Notes under the pieces: generated by a model
The model's database searches: none
What the model saw: only the letters and a program-made list of their open reading frames with translations
Told to the model about the DNA's origin: nothing
From: a virus
Length of the DNA: 33,142 nucleotides
Virus record (IMG/VR): IMGVR_UViG_3300034101_002886
Span: 1-33,142 of that record
Strand: one strand, 5' to 3'
In this document: positions 10,575 to 20,041 of the stretch, one piece after another
Layout of the letters: each line of letters opens with the position of its first letter
Position numbering within the stretch: position 1 is the first letter of the stretch
Position numbers and translations under genes: made by a program

Positions 10575-12758
10575 TTAGTTCACGCGATTGCCGGAACGCT
10601 TCGGCTCGGGGATGTTCGCCATCTTTTCGAGCAAGTTGCGGAGCTTCACCGGGCCGTCGATGAGACCCTGCACGCCGAGGTCGATGCGGAGCTTTTCGAG
10701 CTGGTCGTTGCTGAACTGCCGACCCTCTTCCGGTCCGGTGACGGGCCGACCGAGCGTGTCCACGATCTCCCAGCGATTGCGGTTCTGGTTGTACTCGAAC
10801 GCGAGCGATTCCCGCTTGAAGTCCTTCTGTGACGCGACGTACTTGCCGATGATGTGGTCGCCGAGTGCTGGCAGTTCCGCCCTGGTCTCAAGACCAAGAC
10901 CTTGTACCGCTGTCCGCGTCCAACGTCCATTGATGACCGCGCCCATCGACTCCGCGTCGGCCTTGGCCTTGTTGAGTGCTTCGGTCGCGCTTGTGCCGGG
11001 CAAGTAGTACGTCGCCCGGTCGCGGATGAAGCTCATCACGTCGCCGATGTTGTTGGCGCCAGTCTGGACGGCCGCGCGTTCAATGTCCGGCATCGGAATC
11101 CGCTGCTCTATCTCGACCATCGTCCCGGCAGGCGGGTTGATCGCACGCTGGGCGACGCGAAGGGCGGTGAGCGGGTCGTTGGTGTTGGCGAGTGCGGCGA
11201 CCGCAGCGCCGTAGAACTTCCGCTCCTTCTCGGTGAGAAGACTGTCGAGGAACGCCGGCTGCTGGGCCTTCATCACGCGGTAAAGTCCGAATGTTTCGGA
11301 GACGTAGGCCGGAACTTTGTCGGACTGTTCCAGTTGCTCGGCCGACATGAGCACGGCGCGGAAGCGGCCCTGCCATTCGTGAACCGGCAGGGCGTGCATG
11401 GCCGCTTCGTTGACCTTGGCGCTGAGGTTGAGGGCGGGGTCCGTGATCGTCCGGTCGATCTCGGCGAAGATGCTCGGCTTGGCCGCGGCCCGAAAGTCGT
11501 TGCCGGTGAGTTTCACTTCTTTGTCGCCGGACTTGAAAGTCACGTCGCCGATCGTGCCGAGCGGGACGGAGTTGCGGTTGGCGACGACCGAGGACAGAAA
11601 CGCCTCCTGCTGACGCTTGATGTCGGTCTCGATCGCCTGCTTGCGGAACTGCTCTTGTCCGCGGGCGAACTCATTGATGAGCTTCGTCGCCCGTTCGGGA
11701 TCAGTCTTGGCGATCTGGTTGATCACGCCGACCTGGTCGTCGGTCTGGCCGTTGAGCCCGGCCGCGTAGTACTGCTGCTCAAGCTCGGCCATCGCCTTTG
11801 TCTGCATCGCGGCGTCGCGTTCGGCGACACGGCTGTTGAGCATCTTGCTCACGCCCGGCGACAGTACCTCGCCACCCTGACGAATGGCGTCGGCGACGAT
11901 GTCGGCCGGTGCCCCGCTGTCGATGAGTTCGGTGATTGTTCCTGCGAGAAGGGCCGACTGCTTGTTTTGCTGCTGGAGCGACACGGCCTGAGCGGAGTTG
12001 CGAAGCGTGGCGACCTCGCCCGCAAACTCGCCCTGCGGGATCGACGACGCGATCATGTCGAACTTTGTGGTGTCGCCGCTCTCGGCCGCGAGTTTGAGCG
12101 CGGGGAGCACGATCGACGCACGGGCTGCACGATCGGTCACGCCGAACTGAGCAACGGCGGACTGGACGGTTGCGTTGATGTCGTCGACCGACTTGGCGGT
12201 GTAGACGCCGTCGGCGAGAATCGACATCGTTTCCTTGGCCGCGACTTCTTTGTCGGTGGCGAGCTGCGACGCCAGGGTCCGAGCAAGATGCGGTTCCATG
12301 ATCGAGCGGTACTGCTCGACGTAGTCCTCGTCGGCGACGCCGGTGTTGGCGAGCTCGCGGTTCACGAGCTGCGTGGCGAACTCGCCAGCACGCGTTCCTT
12401 CGGGGACTTTGATCTTGCCGGCGGCGATGTCTTCGGAGTAGCGGACAGCGTCAAGGCGACCGTGCCGGGCCGCGATCGCTGCGTTGGCTCGGCCGACGAT
12501 GTCGTTGTTCCGCTCGACGTCGCGGATCTGGCCCTCGCGAACCGACGCGGCGGCGCCGAACGCCTGACCCACGAGACCAAAGATCTGGTTCACGGTCTGA
12601 ACGTCGGCGGCAAGCTCGGACGTCACCGGAACGATCGGGGCTCGCGGGATGTCAACCTGCACCGAGGGCGTGGCCGTGAGTGCCGCGGCTGACGTGTCGT
12701 ACCGCGAGCGGACCACGCTGGTCGCGTTCGCAAGCTCGTTGGACCCGAAACTCGCCAT
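10575..12758 (-). CDS. Internal virion protein C (T7 gp15-like)
   Basis: 727 aa, close to T7 gp15 (747), in the same order between the gp14-like and gp16-like genes. It is helical, rich in Ala, Gln and charged residues, with no membrane segment apart from a short apolar stretch near residues 58-72. It should form part of the internal core and the periplasmic DNA-ejection tube. The ATG overlaps the preceding stop as TGATG and has GGAGG about 10 bases upstream. No catalytic motif seen. Confidence 0.85.
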   Translation of the reverse strand: MASFGSNELANATSVVRSRYDTSAAALTATPSVQVDIPRAPIVPVTSELAADVQTVNQIFGLVGQAFGAAASVREGQIRDVERNNDIVGRANAAIAARHGRLDAVRYSEDIAAGKIKVPEGTRAGEFATQLVNRELANTGVADEDYVEQYRSIMEPHLARTLASQLATDKEVAAKETMSILADGVYTAKSVDDINATVQSAVAQFGVTDRAARASIVLPALKLAAESGDTTKFDMIASSIPQGEFAGEVATLRNSAQAVSLQQQNKQSALLAGTITELIDSGAPADIVADAIRQGGEVLSPGVSKMLNSRVAERDAAMQTKAMAELEQQYYAAGLNGQTDDQVGVINQIAKTDPERATKLINEFARGQEQFRKQAIETDIKRQQEAFLSSVVANRNSVPLGTIGDVTFKSGDKEVKLTGNDFRAAAKPSIFAEIDRTITDPALNLSAKVNEAAMHALPVHEWQGRFRAVLMSAEQLEQSDKVPAYVSETFGLYRVMKAQQPAFLDSLLTEKERKFYGAAVAALANTNDPLTALRVAQRAINPPAGTMVEIEQRIPMPDIERAAVQTGANNIGDVMSFIRDRATYYLPGTSATEALNKAKADAESMGAVINGRWTRTAVQGLGLETRAELPALGDHIIGKYVASQKDFKRESLAFEYNQNRNRWEIVDTLGRPVTGPEEGRQFSNDQLEKLRIDLGVQGLIDGPVKLRNLLEKMANIPEPKRSGNRVN

Positions 12759-13288
12759 CAGAGCGTCCCTCCGGTTCTGTTGTCGGCGACCGGCGTCTTG
12801 GCCGCGGGGATCGGCTTTGACAGCGACTCGGTCGCCTGGTAGATGCCTAGCCCGGTCGAATAGCCCTGCAAGCCGCCCGTGAGGAACGCCGCACCGACCG
12901 ACCGCTTCTGGCTCTGGAGCTGGTTGATCTGGCTCTGCAAGCCAAGCCGGAGCGAGTCGAGGTTGTTCTGGTAGTTCGTGTCGATCGTCGCCATATCGAT
13001 CGCCCCGCTTGCGGCGGCTGCGGCGTCCAGCATGGCGGCGTTGCCGCCGAACCCTGTTCCGTTCTCTGCGGCGGTCGCGGCGATCTTCCCGCGAAGCTGG
13101 TCGATCTGCTGACGCTTGCGAAGCTGCTCGACGGCCCGGCTGTCGGCAAGGGCTTTCGCCTGGGCGTCGGCGCTCGCCATCGCGTTGTCTTGGGTCTGCC
13201 TGATCGCCCGGTTCTGGCTGGAGGTGCCAGCCGCGCCGAGCGCGGCGAGACCGCCGGCGATCCCGAGAGAGATTGGGTCAAATGACAT
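12758..13288 (-). CDS. Internal virion protein B (T7 gp14-like)
   Basis: 176 aa from ATG 13286-13288, 2 bases after the previous stop; the longer frame to 13489 is shadow. T7 gp14 is 196 aa in the same place. It starts with MSFDPISLGIAGGLAALGAAG, a Gly/Ala-rich apolar N-terminus. A Gln-rich helical body follows (RAVEQLRKRQQIDQLRGKI), then a Gly-rich C-terminal part. T7 gp14 inserts in the outer membrane during ejection, and the apolar segment fits this. Assignment rests on size, order and composition. Confidence 0.8.
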   Translation of the reverse strand: MSFDPISLGIAGGLAALGAAGTSSQNRAIRQTQDNAMASADAQAKALADSRAVEQLRKRQQIDQLRGKIAATAAENGTGFGGNAAMLDAAAAASGAIDMATIDTNYQNNLDSLRLGLQSQINQLQSQKRSVGAAFLTGGLQGYSTGLGIYQATESLSKPIPAAKTPVADNRTGGTL

Positions 13289-13290
13289 GG

Positions 13291-13860
13291 TTAGTCGCGT
13301 CGTTTGTTGTCGTCGAGCTCGAAGAACACGCTGGCAATCAGAACACGCTTGGGTTCGGGCATGGTGATGCGGTACACAGACTTGTCGGCGTTGCCGTTGA
13401 GCCTTGCTCGGAATCGCCCAGTCGATTCGGCGTCCGCGGAGTTGCCGTCGCTGAACGTTCTGGTTCGCGTATTGCGGTTGTCGAGCCACGAGTGTTCGAC
13501 CGTGTACGGACCGCTCTTGTGGTGCGACACGTCAACGTGCCGAACCTGAGCGTGCGACGTGAAGTCGGGATTCTGTCCCGGAGTGCCCGAGAACGGCCTC
13601 GTGAGCTGCACGGACGCGGGGAACGCGACTCCGATCACAACTGGACCGGCGGTGAAGTTGCCAGAAAGCGTCACGGTGTTTCCCGACGGAACGACCGGGT
13701 AGACCGTTCCGGCGTTGGCGCCGAAGTCGTCCCCGAGGATGAGGGTGTCCACCTTGGCGTCGGCGATCGGGAGCGTCCACGTCGTCGTGTCGGGCCCGCT
13801 CGTCGTGCCCGAGTGCGTCAACTGGTACTGACGATCAAGGAGGGGGGAGAACGAAGCCAT
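13291..13860 (-). CDS. Tail tubular protein B (nozzle), C-terminal part, in a different frame
   Basis: If translated separately it would start at ATG 13858-13860 (189 aa), overlapping the upstream gene by 26 bases with no ribosome site; another ATG at 13890 is no better. The content matches the C-terminal beta domain of T7 gp12: LLDRQYQL at the start, an LTRPF and QVRHVDV strand region, then TGRFRARLNGNAD and a final VLIASVFFEL strand. The upstream gene supplies the N-terminal part and ends in a run of six C followed by CTCCTTGA. A +1 shift on that run would join them into about 719 aa (T7 gp12 is 794). So this is probably half of one protein, not an independent gene. Confidence 0.8.
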   Translation of the reverse strand: MASFSPLLDRQYQLTHSGTTSGPDTTTWTLPIADAKVDTLILGDDFGANAGTVYPVVPSGNTVTLSGNFTAGPVVIGVAFPASVQLTRPFSGTPGQNPDFTSHAQVRHVDVSHHKSGPYTVEHSWLDNRNTRTRTFSDGNSADAESTGRFRARLNGNADKSVYRITMPEPKRVLIASVFFELDDNKRRD

Positions 13861-15451
13861 GAAGTGGGTCCAGATAGAACGTGTCGCCATCCGATTCGGG
13901 GGCGTAGGTCGCGTCCGACGGAGTGACTTCCGACGTTCCGAGTTGGAGGGATGTTCCGAGGTTCATCGACTCGACTACGAACTGGTTGGCTGTCGTGGTC
14001 TCGGCGAGAATGAACACGGTGCTGTCGATGATCGCAATGTCGCAGATTCGATCGAGGTGATCGAACTTGAACTTCGACCACGCGCTCTGCACCCTCTGAT
14101 TGGCGACCCAGTATTCCTTGTGGACGTAGAGCGTGTCGGGGTGGCTCGCAGTGAGAATCGCGGTCGTGCCGTCGATGCTGCTGGTTGCCTCGCGTTCGAT
14201 GTCGCGTGGGATGAGGCCGACGACATGCTCGGAGACGTTCTCCGCCGTGTTGGAAACCTGAGTGTCGTCGTAGTAGTACTGGTAGACGATGCCCGAGTCC
14301 TTCGACGCTGTCGCAAAGACCACTCGATTCCCGAGCGTGGCAAGAGGGAGCGAAATGCTCGAATACGAAGTCGATTCGGTAAACGAGACGGTGCCGGGCT
14401 CAAGTGTGTCGGGCGACGACAACTGGAACTGCTTTGATGACTTGCAGAAAACGACCATGCCCTTGCGGAACGCGGCGAATCGATCGACGAAGTTCACGAA
14501 ACTGCCGGACAGCGACACGTCGATCGGGTCGGTCGCGACGATTGAGCCTGCGGTGGCAAGGTCGTACCAGAAGTCAAAGAAGTCGCCAGTCTGTGAGGCG
14601 ACGATGCGGTTGTTGATGCCGAAGAACAGTCGCTCACGGTGCACCACGAGATCGGCGATTGCTCGCGTTCCGTCGAACGACGTGAATAGCGGGTTAGTCG
14701 TGTTGGTCCCGCGAGACCCGCGGGCCTTCCACGTCTGCACGCCGCAAACGAACTTGAGCGGGCTGATCGAGGTTCGGGCAATGCCAAACGGGAACGTCGT
14801 TGCGGTGAGCGTCCCGGCGGTGTTGTTGCCTGCGAGCAAGACCTTGGTGTTCGCGACAAGCGAGAAGTCCGCTGCGGTGGTGATGCGGTAGTCGTCGGCG
14901 GTCGGGGAGCCCGATGCGAAGTAGGTCTCGGCGCCGGTGTTGGGCTCCACGATCCCCTCGGTGCCGTTGAGCGGATAGATGCGTGGCAGTCCGCCGGCCG
15001 ACAGGATCCACAGGTACCGCTCGCTGCTGTCTCGCTGCGTCGCGTAGAAGCGGATCTTGTCCCCGCTGGCCCACTGCGACTGAATCGCGGCCGTCGCCGA
15101 GGTCGATCCGCTGTTGACGGTGCCTGCGGCGAACGTGCCGGCGGTGGTGCGGATCGTCAGGTATGTGGTCGATCCGTCGGTCACGACCGACAGGATCACG
15201 CCCGACTTGCCGCCCGACTGCGTGATCGTGTTGCCAGCGACGAACGGACCATTGGCGACCGACGTGCACGAGATTCGGAGGTTCCCGACCTCGACCATGA
15301 ACTTCGTGCCGTTGCGTTTCATCGCCCCGAACTGGACCGAGAAGGCGACGTTCTCGGCGTCCTCGACCTGACCGGGCTGGCGAAGGTGCGGAGGCTGGGT
15401 TGAGATCCCGCCGAACAGTGCCGGCCGCTCAACCTGAATCTGCTCTGGCAT
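13835..15451 (-). CDS. Tail tubular protein B (nozzle), N-terminal part
   Basis: 538 aa. The N-terminus (LFGGISTQPPHLRQPGQVED, from about residue 12) is the standard opening of gp12-type nozzle proteins, which form the lower tail tube and carry the fibres. The body is beta-rich. It ends FYLDPLHGFVLPPP and stops just where the family normally continues into its last beta domain; that domain is present in the +1 frame. ATG 15449-15451 has GGAG 5 bases upstream and lies 1 base after tail tubular protein A. Confidence 0.9.
   Translation of the reverse strand: MPEQIQVERPALFGGISTQPPHLRQPGQVEDAENVAFSVQFGAMKRNGTKFMVEVGNLRISCTSVANGPFVAGNTITQSGGKSGVILSVVTDGSTTYLTIRTTAGTFAAGTVNSGSTSATAAIQSQWASGDKIRFYATQRDSSERYLWILSAGGLPRIYPLNGTEGIVEPNTGAETYFASGSPTADDYRITTAADFSLVANTKVLLAGNNTAGTLTATTFPFGIARTSISPLKFVCGVQTWKARGSRGTNTTNPLFTSFDGTRAIADLVVHRERLFFGINNRIVASQTGDFFDFWYDLATAGSIVATDPIDVSLSGSFVNFVDRFAAFRKGMVVFCKSSKQFQLSSPDTLEPGTVSFTESTSYSSISLPLATLGNRVVFATASKDSGIVYQYYYDDTQVSNTAENVSEHVVGLIPRDIEREATSSIDGTTAILTASHPDTLYVHKEYWVANQRVQSAWSKFKFDHLDRICDIAIIDSTVFILAETTTANQFVVESMNLGTSLQLGTSEVTPSDATYAPESDGDTFYLDPLHGFVLPPP
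13842..13847 (-). other. C6 run: candidate +1 frameshift site or sequence error
   Basis: In the sense strand the frame reads CTC CCC CCT CCT TGA. Reading CCC then skipping one C gives CTC CTT GAT CGT and enters the C-terminal frame (LLDRQ). Removing one C from the run makes a single uninterrupted gene. A stop codon 9 bases after the CCC fits a recoding site, but a homopolymer indel is just as simple. Confidence 0.6.
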
Positions 15452-15452
15452 G

Positions 15453-16247
15453 TCAACTCCAGTGGGTTGTTTGGCGGCGGTACGTCAAGTCCATCACGTC
15501 GGGCTGCTTGAGGATGTTGACCCGCACGATCTCCTGGTTCTGCTTGCGAGCCCGCATGCGGAAGCCCTGGAGTTCCTGCAAGAGCATCTGGTCGTCGGTC
15601 ACGCCGCGCCGCTTGTACCGCTGGAAGCGGACGGACGCGTTCGCGACAATGTACTCGGCAAGCCACTCAGGAAGCGTCGTGAAATCGTTCTGGACGATGC
15701 GATCGACCTTGACGCTGGTGCTGAACGTGTCGGTGTTGTTCTCGGGGTCGTAGAGGAACCCGCCGACGTTGTAGAACTCGCGGGTCTCGTAGACGCCGGG
15801 GCGAACCATGAGCCACGACGACGGAACGACGTGCTTGGCCGACGTGATCGTGGCGACGGCGGTTGGGACGTTTCGGTTGACGGCGCCGCTGGCGATCGTG
15901 TGCCCAACGGTGGTGGTGAACGCCGTCGTGTTGAGCTTTTTGCCGTAGACGATGCCGCCAGCCTCGTAGTAGAAGGTCATGGTCGCGAGCGACGTCGCCT
16001 GCGTGATCGTGCTGCCGTAGGTGAACGTGCCGGTGCCGCCGGTCGCGGTCAAGGCTGTGTCGGGAATCTCGACGGTGATGTTGTTCTGGGTGTTCGGAGC
16101 CCAACCCTCGGTCTGAATCTGTTTGTCCGACTCGTTGAGGAAGGTCTCGGCTTCGCCGGCGTCGGATGTGCCGCCGGTGTCGAGTGCGGGAACCGGAGGG
16201 TCGCCAAGACCGCGAAGGATCCGGTTGACGGCTTCAAGTCGCTGCAT
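15453..16247 (-). CDS. Tail tubular protein A (gatekeeper, T7 gp11-like)
   Basis: 264 aa (T7 gp11 is 196). Family landmarks are clear: an N-terminal LEAVNRILRGLGDPPV, then EAETFLNESDKQIQTEGW. The C-terminal half has LPEWLAEYIVANASVRFQ followed by the helical end. It forms the ring between portal and nozzle. About 60-70 extra residues in the middle are Thr/Gly-rich and beta-like (roughly residues 64-130) and look like an inserted decoration domain. Ribosome site GGAAGG lies about 7 bases before the ATG. Confidence 0.93.
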   Translation of the reverse strand: MQRLEAVNRILRGLGDPPVPALDTGGTSDAGEAETFLNESDKQIQTEGWAPNTQNNITVEIPDTALTATGGTGTFTYGSTITQATSLATMTFYYEAGGIVYGKKLNTTAFTTTVGHTIASGAVNRNVPTAVATITSAKHVVPSSWLMVRPGVYETREFYNVGGFLYDPENNTDTFSTSVKVDRIVQNDFTTLPEWLAEYIVANASVRFQRYKRRGVTDDQMLLQELQGFRMRARKQNQEIVRVNILKQPDVMDLTYRRQTTHWS

Positions 16248-18384: not shown

Positions 18385-18395
18385 GTGCTCTCCGT

Positions 18396-19994
18396 TCACG
18401 CGTAGAAGTCGCCAGTGCCGCGGGCGACCGCCTCCGCGAGCGTGATGCATCGGTACTCGCCCGACTTGATGAGCGGGTACGCCCGGTTCGTCACGGCGAG
18501 CATGTTCGCGTTCTCCTGCGAGCGGTTGGCGTGGCCGTAGAACACGGCGAGTCCGCCCTGTTCGTCGAGGATGTCGAGCGTCGCCAGCGAGACGGTCGAC
18601 CCGTAGGGCGTCGCGTGCTGCACTTCCAGACAGTCGAGGTGGTTGGTGAACGACGACTGCTCGGCACTGGTGCTCGTGTGCGAGATGATGTCGATGCCGT
18701 TCTCAAGCAAGAGATCGCGCTGGTCCGGCGTCATGTTGCCCTGGTGCGACGCGTAGATCCGCGAGCCCTGCTCGAACCCGTTGTCTTGGAGCCACGCCAT
18801 CGCGGGGTAGATGTGATACCGCCAGAAGTCCTCGGCCGAGACCTCACGCTGCTTGTAGTACGGGCCGACGGTGTCGCTGTCGCGGCGATCGCCCAGGAAC
18901 TTGTTCCAGCCGTGGTTGCCGATCATGTGGCCCGACCGCTGCATCGCCAAGAGATCGGCCTTGGTCGCGTAGCCCGACTGCCCGACCATGCGGGGGTGGA
19001 CGTGGAAGTTGCCGCGGATGCCGTGCTTGTCGAACTCCTTGGCGGTCAGGACGCAGTTGGCGTATCCGTCGTCGTCGCGGAAGGCGATGAACTTCTGCCT
19101 TCCGTCGTTGATGAGGAAGTGCATCGAGTCCAGCGTCATGTAGCAGGTGTTGCTTGCCGTCGGTTGGCAGTAGAGCCGGAACCACTTGATCCGCTTGAGA
19201 TCGATCGACGTGCCGATCGTCGTCGCGGTGGGTTGGGCGTAGCAGAGGTTCCAGCCTGGTCCACAGACGGCGGACGAATCGAACTGCTGCCAGTTCGCCA
19301 TTGTGATGTTGGTGTTGACGTTGTTGACGTCGGTGAGCCCGAGCGTGAGCTTGAAGACAGGTCCGCTCTGGACCTGCTGCTGAGCCGGATCGACGTAGAC
19401 CATCGCGCGGATGGTCGGCATGATGTTCGTGCCGCCGGTGATGTCCACCGGGTTTGCTGTGTAGTCGTACCGAAGTTCCGACGACGTGCCAGAAAGCGAC
19501 GTTTGCTTGATCGAATAGGGCTGCGACTCGCCGCTCTGGACTTCACCCGATCGGCAGTTGACGAAGTCCTTCTCGATCGTGCCGCTGATTGCGACGGCGG
19601 CGGACGCGTCGATGAAGTCGAACGGCAAGACGTGCGAGCATCGGAACCCGGCTTTGCGGACGCCGCGGGCCGTCGAACGCTGGCGGAACTGGAGCGACGG
19701 CGACAGCTTGTAGGGGTTGTCTTCGACGCGGAAGACGCCGCGTTGGACGTTGGAGATCGACGTGCCGACGGTGACGGCGACGGCGCGGTACTGGTCCATC
19801 GCCGGGACCACGAGCACGCCGCTCTCGGTCATAAAGCCGAGGATGGTGTGGGCCGACTGCTCGTCGTTGCGGCCTTCAATGCGGAGGAGCCCTTCGCCGC
19901 TGAACTCGGCTCGGATCGGAACCGTCGCCTCGGTCGCGTTGCTGCGAACCCAGTTGCCGGTGCCCGGCGCGGTGAATCGTGAGGCGAGGATCAT
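18396..19994 (-). CDS. Virion-type protein with C-terminal polysaccharide deacetylase (NodB/CE4) domain
   Basis: 532 aa. Residues 1-295 are beta-rich and look like virion attachment sequence. From about 300 a NodB-type domain follows: FRDDDG at 305-310 (motif 1, metal and base Asp), IGNHGWNK at 358-365 (motif 2) and VFYGHA at 484-489 (late His motif). CE4 enzymes remove N- or O-acetyl groups from peptidoglycan, chitin or capsule. The second His of motif 2 is replaced by Lys365, so metal binding may differ. There is no signal peptide. ATG has GGAG 8 bases upstream and lies just after the intrinsic terminator, the position of the first tail gene. A tail spike that edits host surface sugar during adsorption is the likely role. 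Confidence 0.8.
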   Translation of the reverse strand: MILASRFTAPGTGNWVRSNATEATVPIRAEFSGEGLLRIEGRNDEQSAHTILGFMTESGVLVVPAMDQYRAVAVTVGTSISNVQRGVFRVEDNPYKLSPSLQFRQRSTARGVRKAGFRCSHVLPFDFIDASAAVAISGTIEKDFVNCRSGEVQSGESQPYSIKQTSLSGTSSELRYDYTANPVDITGGTNIMPTIRAMVYVDPAQQQVQSGPVFKLTLGLTDVNNVNTNITMANWQQFDSSAVCGPGWNLCYAQPTATTIGTSIDLKRIKWFRLYCQPTASNTCYMTLDSMHFLINDGRQKFIAFRDDDGYANCVLTAKEFDKHGIRGNFHVHPRMVGQSGYATKADLLAMQRSGHMIGNHGWNKFLGDRRDSDTVGPYYKQREVSAEDFWRYHIYPAMAWLQDNGFEQGSRIYASHQGNMTPDQRDLLLENGIDIISHTSTSAEQSSFTNHLDCLEVQHATPYGSTVSLATLDILDEQGGLAVFYGHANRSQENANMLAVTNRAYPLIKSGEYRCITLAEAVARGTGDFYA

Positions 19995-20010
19995 GCGGCG
20001 TCTCCCAATG

Positions 20011-20041
20011 AAAAAGCCGCGCCCGGTGTCCCGGACGCGGC
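20011..20041 (-). terminator. Intrinsic terminator after the head genes
   Basis: Sense strand: GCCGCGTCCGG, loop GACA, CCGGGCGCGGC, then TTTTT. The stem is 11 bp with one G-U pair. It starts 20 bases after the stop of the decoration-protein gene and ends before the ribosome site of the deacetylase gene. T7 has its T-phi terminator at the same spot, behind the capsid gene. It should lower tail gene expression relative to capsid. Confidence 0.9.

Follow-up and report, generated by a model that had tools for sequence, protein, structure and literature searches.

A tail nozzle gene carried as two adjacent open reading frames in an uncultured T7-like podovirus

Two open reading frames for one nozzle

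The tail nozzle, which retains the genome and docks the fibers, is encoded at the locus analysed here by two open reading frames (ORFs) lying in different frames, and the question is whether the gene is truly divided, is joined by a ribosomal frameshift or only appears broken through an error in the sequence. The window, that is, the whole stretch of 33,142 bases that was analysed (IMG/VR virus record IMGVR_UViG_3300034101_002886, positions 1 to 33,142), belongs to an uncultured T7-like podovirus. An earlier note had ascribed both ORFs to tail tubular protein B, the T7 gp12-type nozzle, and this was confirmed by the PF25675 and phrog_457 matches of the two. ORF1 (13835-15451, minus strand, 538 aa) matches PF25675 Phage_nozzle with E=8.9e-67 and phrog_457 with E=1.1e-69; these profiles, together with fold search and dN/dS, assign to it the N-terminal platform strands and the beta-propeller of the nozzle. 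Its C-terminal end is YLDPLHGFVLPPP, followed by the stop codon. ORF2 (13291-13860, minus strand, 189 aa), whose open frame spans 13291-13890 on the minus strand in +1 relative to ORF1, has its own ATG at 13860 and matches the same profiles with E=1.7e-7 and E=1.8e-14, respectively; profiles, alignment to a relative and the AlphaFold2 model assign to it the fiber-dock and C-terminal platform part. Both matches are above cut-off and cover consecutive profile stretches that meet at phrog_457 589/591, the family sequence amounting to about 690 aa in all (502 + 189).

A T7-type late operon surrounds the nozzle ORFs. The tail adaptor gene, gp11-like (15453-16247, minus strand, PF17212), lies directly upstream of ORF1 and passes into its start through TGA-C-ATG, and a gp14-like internal virion protein (12758-13288, minus strand, PF24072) is encoded directly downstream of ORF2. 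Further downstream are a gp16-type protein and the large terminase, and farther upstream the head-tail connector and a single-subunit RNA polymerase. The structural region also encodes a 532-aa protein (18396-19994, minus strand) that weakly matches polysaccharide deacetylases (PF01522, E=1.7e-5) and may be a tail spike enzyme; over 18393-20040, DNA identity to relatives is 92.6%, as against about 85% in the flanks.

The nozzle is encoded in one ORF in 87 other loci, namely 11 of 11 named autographiviruses (including T3 and SP6) and 76 IMG/VR contigs, and the single polypeptide typical of the family is replaced by two ORFs in the window and in three related IMG/VR contigs, L001, L002 and L003. 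Among the loci compared, a split between the propeller and the C-terminal part occurs in this lineage only, apart from contig L030. The latter was not counted as an independent split, since it differs by one base at the junction (GAG to TAG, L030 4875-4877) from the intact, 99.9%-identical L031; the position is almost the same nozzle junction as that of the window split. Other breaks were seen elsewhere in the nozzle frame: near the N-terminus in L004 (945-4386), where an ORF at 1504-2184, with no Pfam match, stands between both parts, and near profile position 130 in L060 (3303-5721), with overlapping ORFs in different frames. The nozzles next nearest to the split lineage are about 30% identical, and no close single-ORF relative was found; a search of bacterial and archaeal genomes confirmed no closer relatives, and tblastn of ORF2 against named phages gave no match. 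A literature search of incomplete coverage yielded no relevant paper on a tail tubular protein B that is split.

The junction and its C run

The junction has the sense-strand sequence CTC CCC CCT CCT TGA, and skipping one base there gives a continuous frame of 719 aa, both as the earlier note had described; its statement that this length is close to T7 gp12 was loose, the latter having 794 aa. The note placed the split at the C6 run (13842-13847 on the minus strand, G6 on the plus strand), the proposed slip site. The run does sit in the overlap of the ORFs, but it is not the split point, since the frames overlap by 128 nt from stop to stop and the run is one feature within this overlap. Runs of at least six C or G occur seven times in the window, so that about 0.025 would be expected by chance per such overlap, a post hoc figure; a +1 or a +2 relation of overlapping frames is a 50:50 matter. 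The note gave ORF2 the +1 frame, correctly, and no ribosome site, while its own ATG, upstream of the run, was missed. From this ATG to the TGA of ORF1 the overlap is 26 nt (13835-13860, minus strand), with 20 nt between both codons, within termination-reinitiation distance.

Comparison of relatives for the same run, as the note had suggested, found it in L001 and not in L002 or L003, the last two being identical to each other. L001 is 99.9% identical to the window over 8.7 kb and repeats the junction and the C6 exactly; none of its 9 mismatches falls in the nozzle genes past about residue 320 of ORF1. In L002 and L003, whose ORF1 is 84% identical to that of the window, the nozzle gene has the same two parts and the break reads CTC TGA C: ORF1 closes with ...ESLDLATSL and TGA, after which a single C precedes ATG GCA AAC TTC ACC CAC ATC CTC GAC CGT. 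A homopolymer or assembly error, with a true C5 and an intact nozzle gene, would fit a break in a C6 run at which deletion of one C joins the frames. It is the least likely of the readings weighed here, as L001 is a second, slightly different contig with the same C6, which makes an isolated base error unlikely, as the diverged relatives are split without any run, and as the start and length of ORF2 are conserved.

The start of ORF2 is MASFSPLLDRQ in the window (ATG GCT TCG TTC TCC CCC CTC CTT GAT CGT) and MANFTHILDRR in L002 (position 4502), and from the common ATG 189 of 189 aa align gap-free with 80% identity. The first four codons, which include a synonymous change (GCT in the window, GCA in L002), precede the C run, and the start is therefore read in the ORF2 frame ahead of any slip. 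Another ATG upstream, at 13890 (MATRSIWTHF), was rejected as the ORF2 start, being absent in L002. The earlier note had named as refuting its proposal two independent genes, each with its own start and ribosome site; the start is present in L002 and L003, and a strong ribosome site is not. Since the same split, with the ORF2 ATG conserved, exists in a relative that has no C run, the data select the real gene split over sequencing error and ribosomal frameshift.

Selection and codon usage were examined along both ORFs. In comparison with L002, dN/dS is 0.158 for residues 1-502 of ORF1 and 0.121 for ORF2 in its own frame, the other frames giving 1.7 and 2.7. A recent inactivating split, by which the nozzle would be broken and the phage a defective population variant, has a counterpart in the nonsense difference between L030 and L031, indicating that broken consensus copies occur in the collection; it is nevertheless even less likely than a frameshift, because purifying selection acts strongly on either half in a lineage diverged by 16-20% in protein and each half retains a full domain. 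Regarding codon usage, the 85-nt linker (13945-13861) scores +6.2 in the ORF1 frame and -5.9 in the ORF2 frame, and the overlap from ATG 13860 scores -4.2 and +3.5, respectively. The coding frame thus switches from ORF1 to ORF2 at the ATG and not at the C run, a result that supports the start without proving it, since the overlap comprises only 8 codons.

The remaining option of the earlier note, a programmed +1 ribosomal frameshift at CCC-CCU (or CCU-UGA), would yield two nozzle forms, a short one of 538 aa and a fused one of 719 aa. The P-site tRNA-Pro would re-pair perfectly in +1 at CCC C (CTC CCC CCT), and the downstream frame is open and conserved. A +1 frameshift at CCC_UGA serves a tail gene of the Listeria phages PSA, A118 and A500 (PMC5009743), and their tail shaft gene has in common with the window the proline codons before TGA, a second frame in +1 and being a tail structural gene. 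Unlike the Listeria site, that of the window is not conserved, being absent in L002 and L003; its downstream frame has a conserved ATG of its own upstream of the run, and what this frame encodes is a conserved core domain rather than an optional extension. Moreover, the coding signal changes at the ATG, RNA structure around the run was no better than in shuffled sequence (z 0.22 and 0.36), and a fused product would exceed single-chain relatives by about 24 residues in its linker. Stimulatory RNA structure is not needed at every known frameshift site. With no conserved shift site, no RNA structure and no coding switch at the run, a programmed shift is judged very unlikely. Low-level +1 slippage at CCC-C may take place in the window, and nothing marks it as programmed or needed. 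The CTC TGA C of L002 was also considered as an RF2-like site (CTT TGA C) and rejected: the middle base would not re-pair, and there is no AGGGGG-like element upstream.

Domains and predicted structures of the two chains

The chain of T7 gp12 runs from N-terminal platform strands through the propeller, one blade of which carries the nozzle tip as an insertion, to the fiber dock and the C-terminal platform, and the N-terminal 45 residues supply three strands of the platform barrel (PMC6702177). By this domain order, the split falls in the linker that joins the propeller to the fiber dock (profile 577 to 590). Structures were predicted from alignments from which rows of named phage records were left out. 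ORF2 alone gave a model with pLDDT 84, and 15 of 15 PDB matches with E<=0.001 were tail-complex chains of short-tailed phages, including T7 gp12; ORF2 by itself is thus predicted to fold as solved nozzles do in their C-terminal part. Confidence in the ORF1 model is moderate (pLDDT 63), with order ending at residue 497, and its top 14 Foldseek matches were nozzle proteins; the top matches of ORF2 were nozzles as well. Disorder is predicted for residues 1-23 and 25-29, which belong to the strands that should pair with ORF2, and for residues 502-538 (pLDDT <50). This predicted pattern of order and disorder fits two chains completing one another.

The disordered C-terminus of ORF1 largely coincides with a 36-residue extension (residues 503-538 plus stop, 13835-13945, minus strand), delimited by alignment, pLDDT and codon usage, that is present in the window/L001 type and absent in L002. 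The linker before ORF2 (13861-13945, minus strand) is 81 nt, exactly 27 codons, longer in the window than in L002; a multiple of three would arise by chance in one of three cases, and two independent genes would not need it. Towards the other end of ORF1, in the region of residues ~57-210 (14822-15283, minus strand), the profile alignment lacks ~137-295, the expected nozzle-tip stretch, in place of which stands an unmatched segment at residues ~57-120. Single-ORF relatives of about 680-700 aa, such as L031, also look short.

A two-chain nozzle and its relation to known systems

The locus is very probably explained, on the evidence of sequence comparison, by a lineage-specific fission of the nozzle gene into two genes, 12N and 12C, whose products would form a two-chain nozzle, 12C being translated by reinitiation or from a weak start of its own. 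A T7 gene 12-type gene would have been split at the propeller/fiber-dock linker into adjacent genes, 12N (13835-15451) providing the propeller together with the N-terminal platform strands, and 12C (13291-13860, from ATG 13860) the fiber dock with the greater part of the platform barrel. ORF2 would most likely be reached by termination-reinitiation: ribosomes finishing 12N would restart nearby, aided by a weak GGA upstream of ATG 13860. The layout for such a restart is TGA-C-ATG in L002, and in the window the ATG precedes the TGA by 23 nt. On this reading, the C6 run is incidental. Points counted against fission are that neither the window nor L002 has a strong Shine-Dalgarno for ORF2, that the lineage is known from two distinct sequence types only, and that the linkers differ in length by a multiple of three.

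The two chains probably reform a normal nozzle, reassembling into one hexamer, because in T7 gp12 the N-terminus contributes three strands of the platform barrel and the C-terminus the remaining ones. A variant in which the fiber-dock/platform subunit would be exchangeable and the window phage would add a little +1-frameshifted fusion, both forms being in the virion, is as improbable as the programmed frameshift.

The fission reading has likenesses and differences with known arrangements. With T7 gp12 and PF25675 the two genes share the consecutive profile parts, the order adaptor-nozzle-gp14 and the folds of solved nozzles; T7 gp12, however, is one chain, whereas the window has two genes and lacks the match to the stretch noted above. 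With TGA-N-ATG reinitiation pairs it shares the ORF1/ORF2 junction of L002 and the gp11/ORF1 junction of the window, although in the window ORF1 overlaps ORF2 rather than ending just before its ATG.

What is new here is a two-gene form of a nozzle family in which nearly every relative examined has a single chain. The homopolymer at this ORF break, which is no sequencing error and, so far as is visible, no recoding site, calls for caution in metagenome annotation. If the fission is true, this lineage would possess a natural two-chain nozzle, in which the linker between propeller and dock need not be covalent, and would offer a ready-made split point for studies of nozzle assembly.
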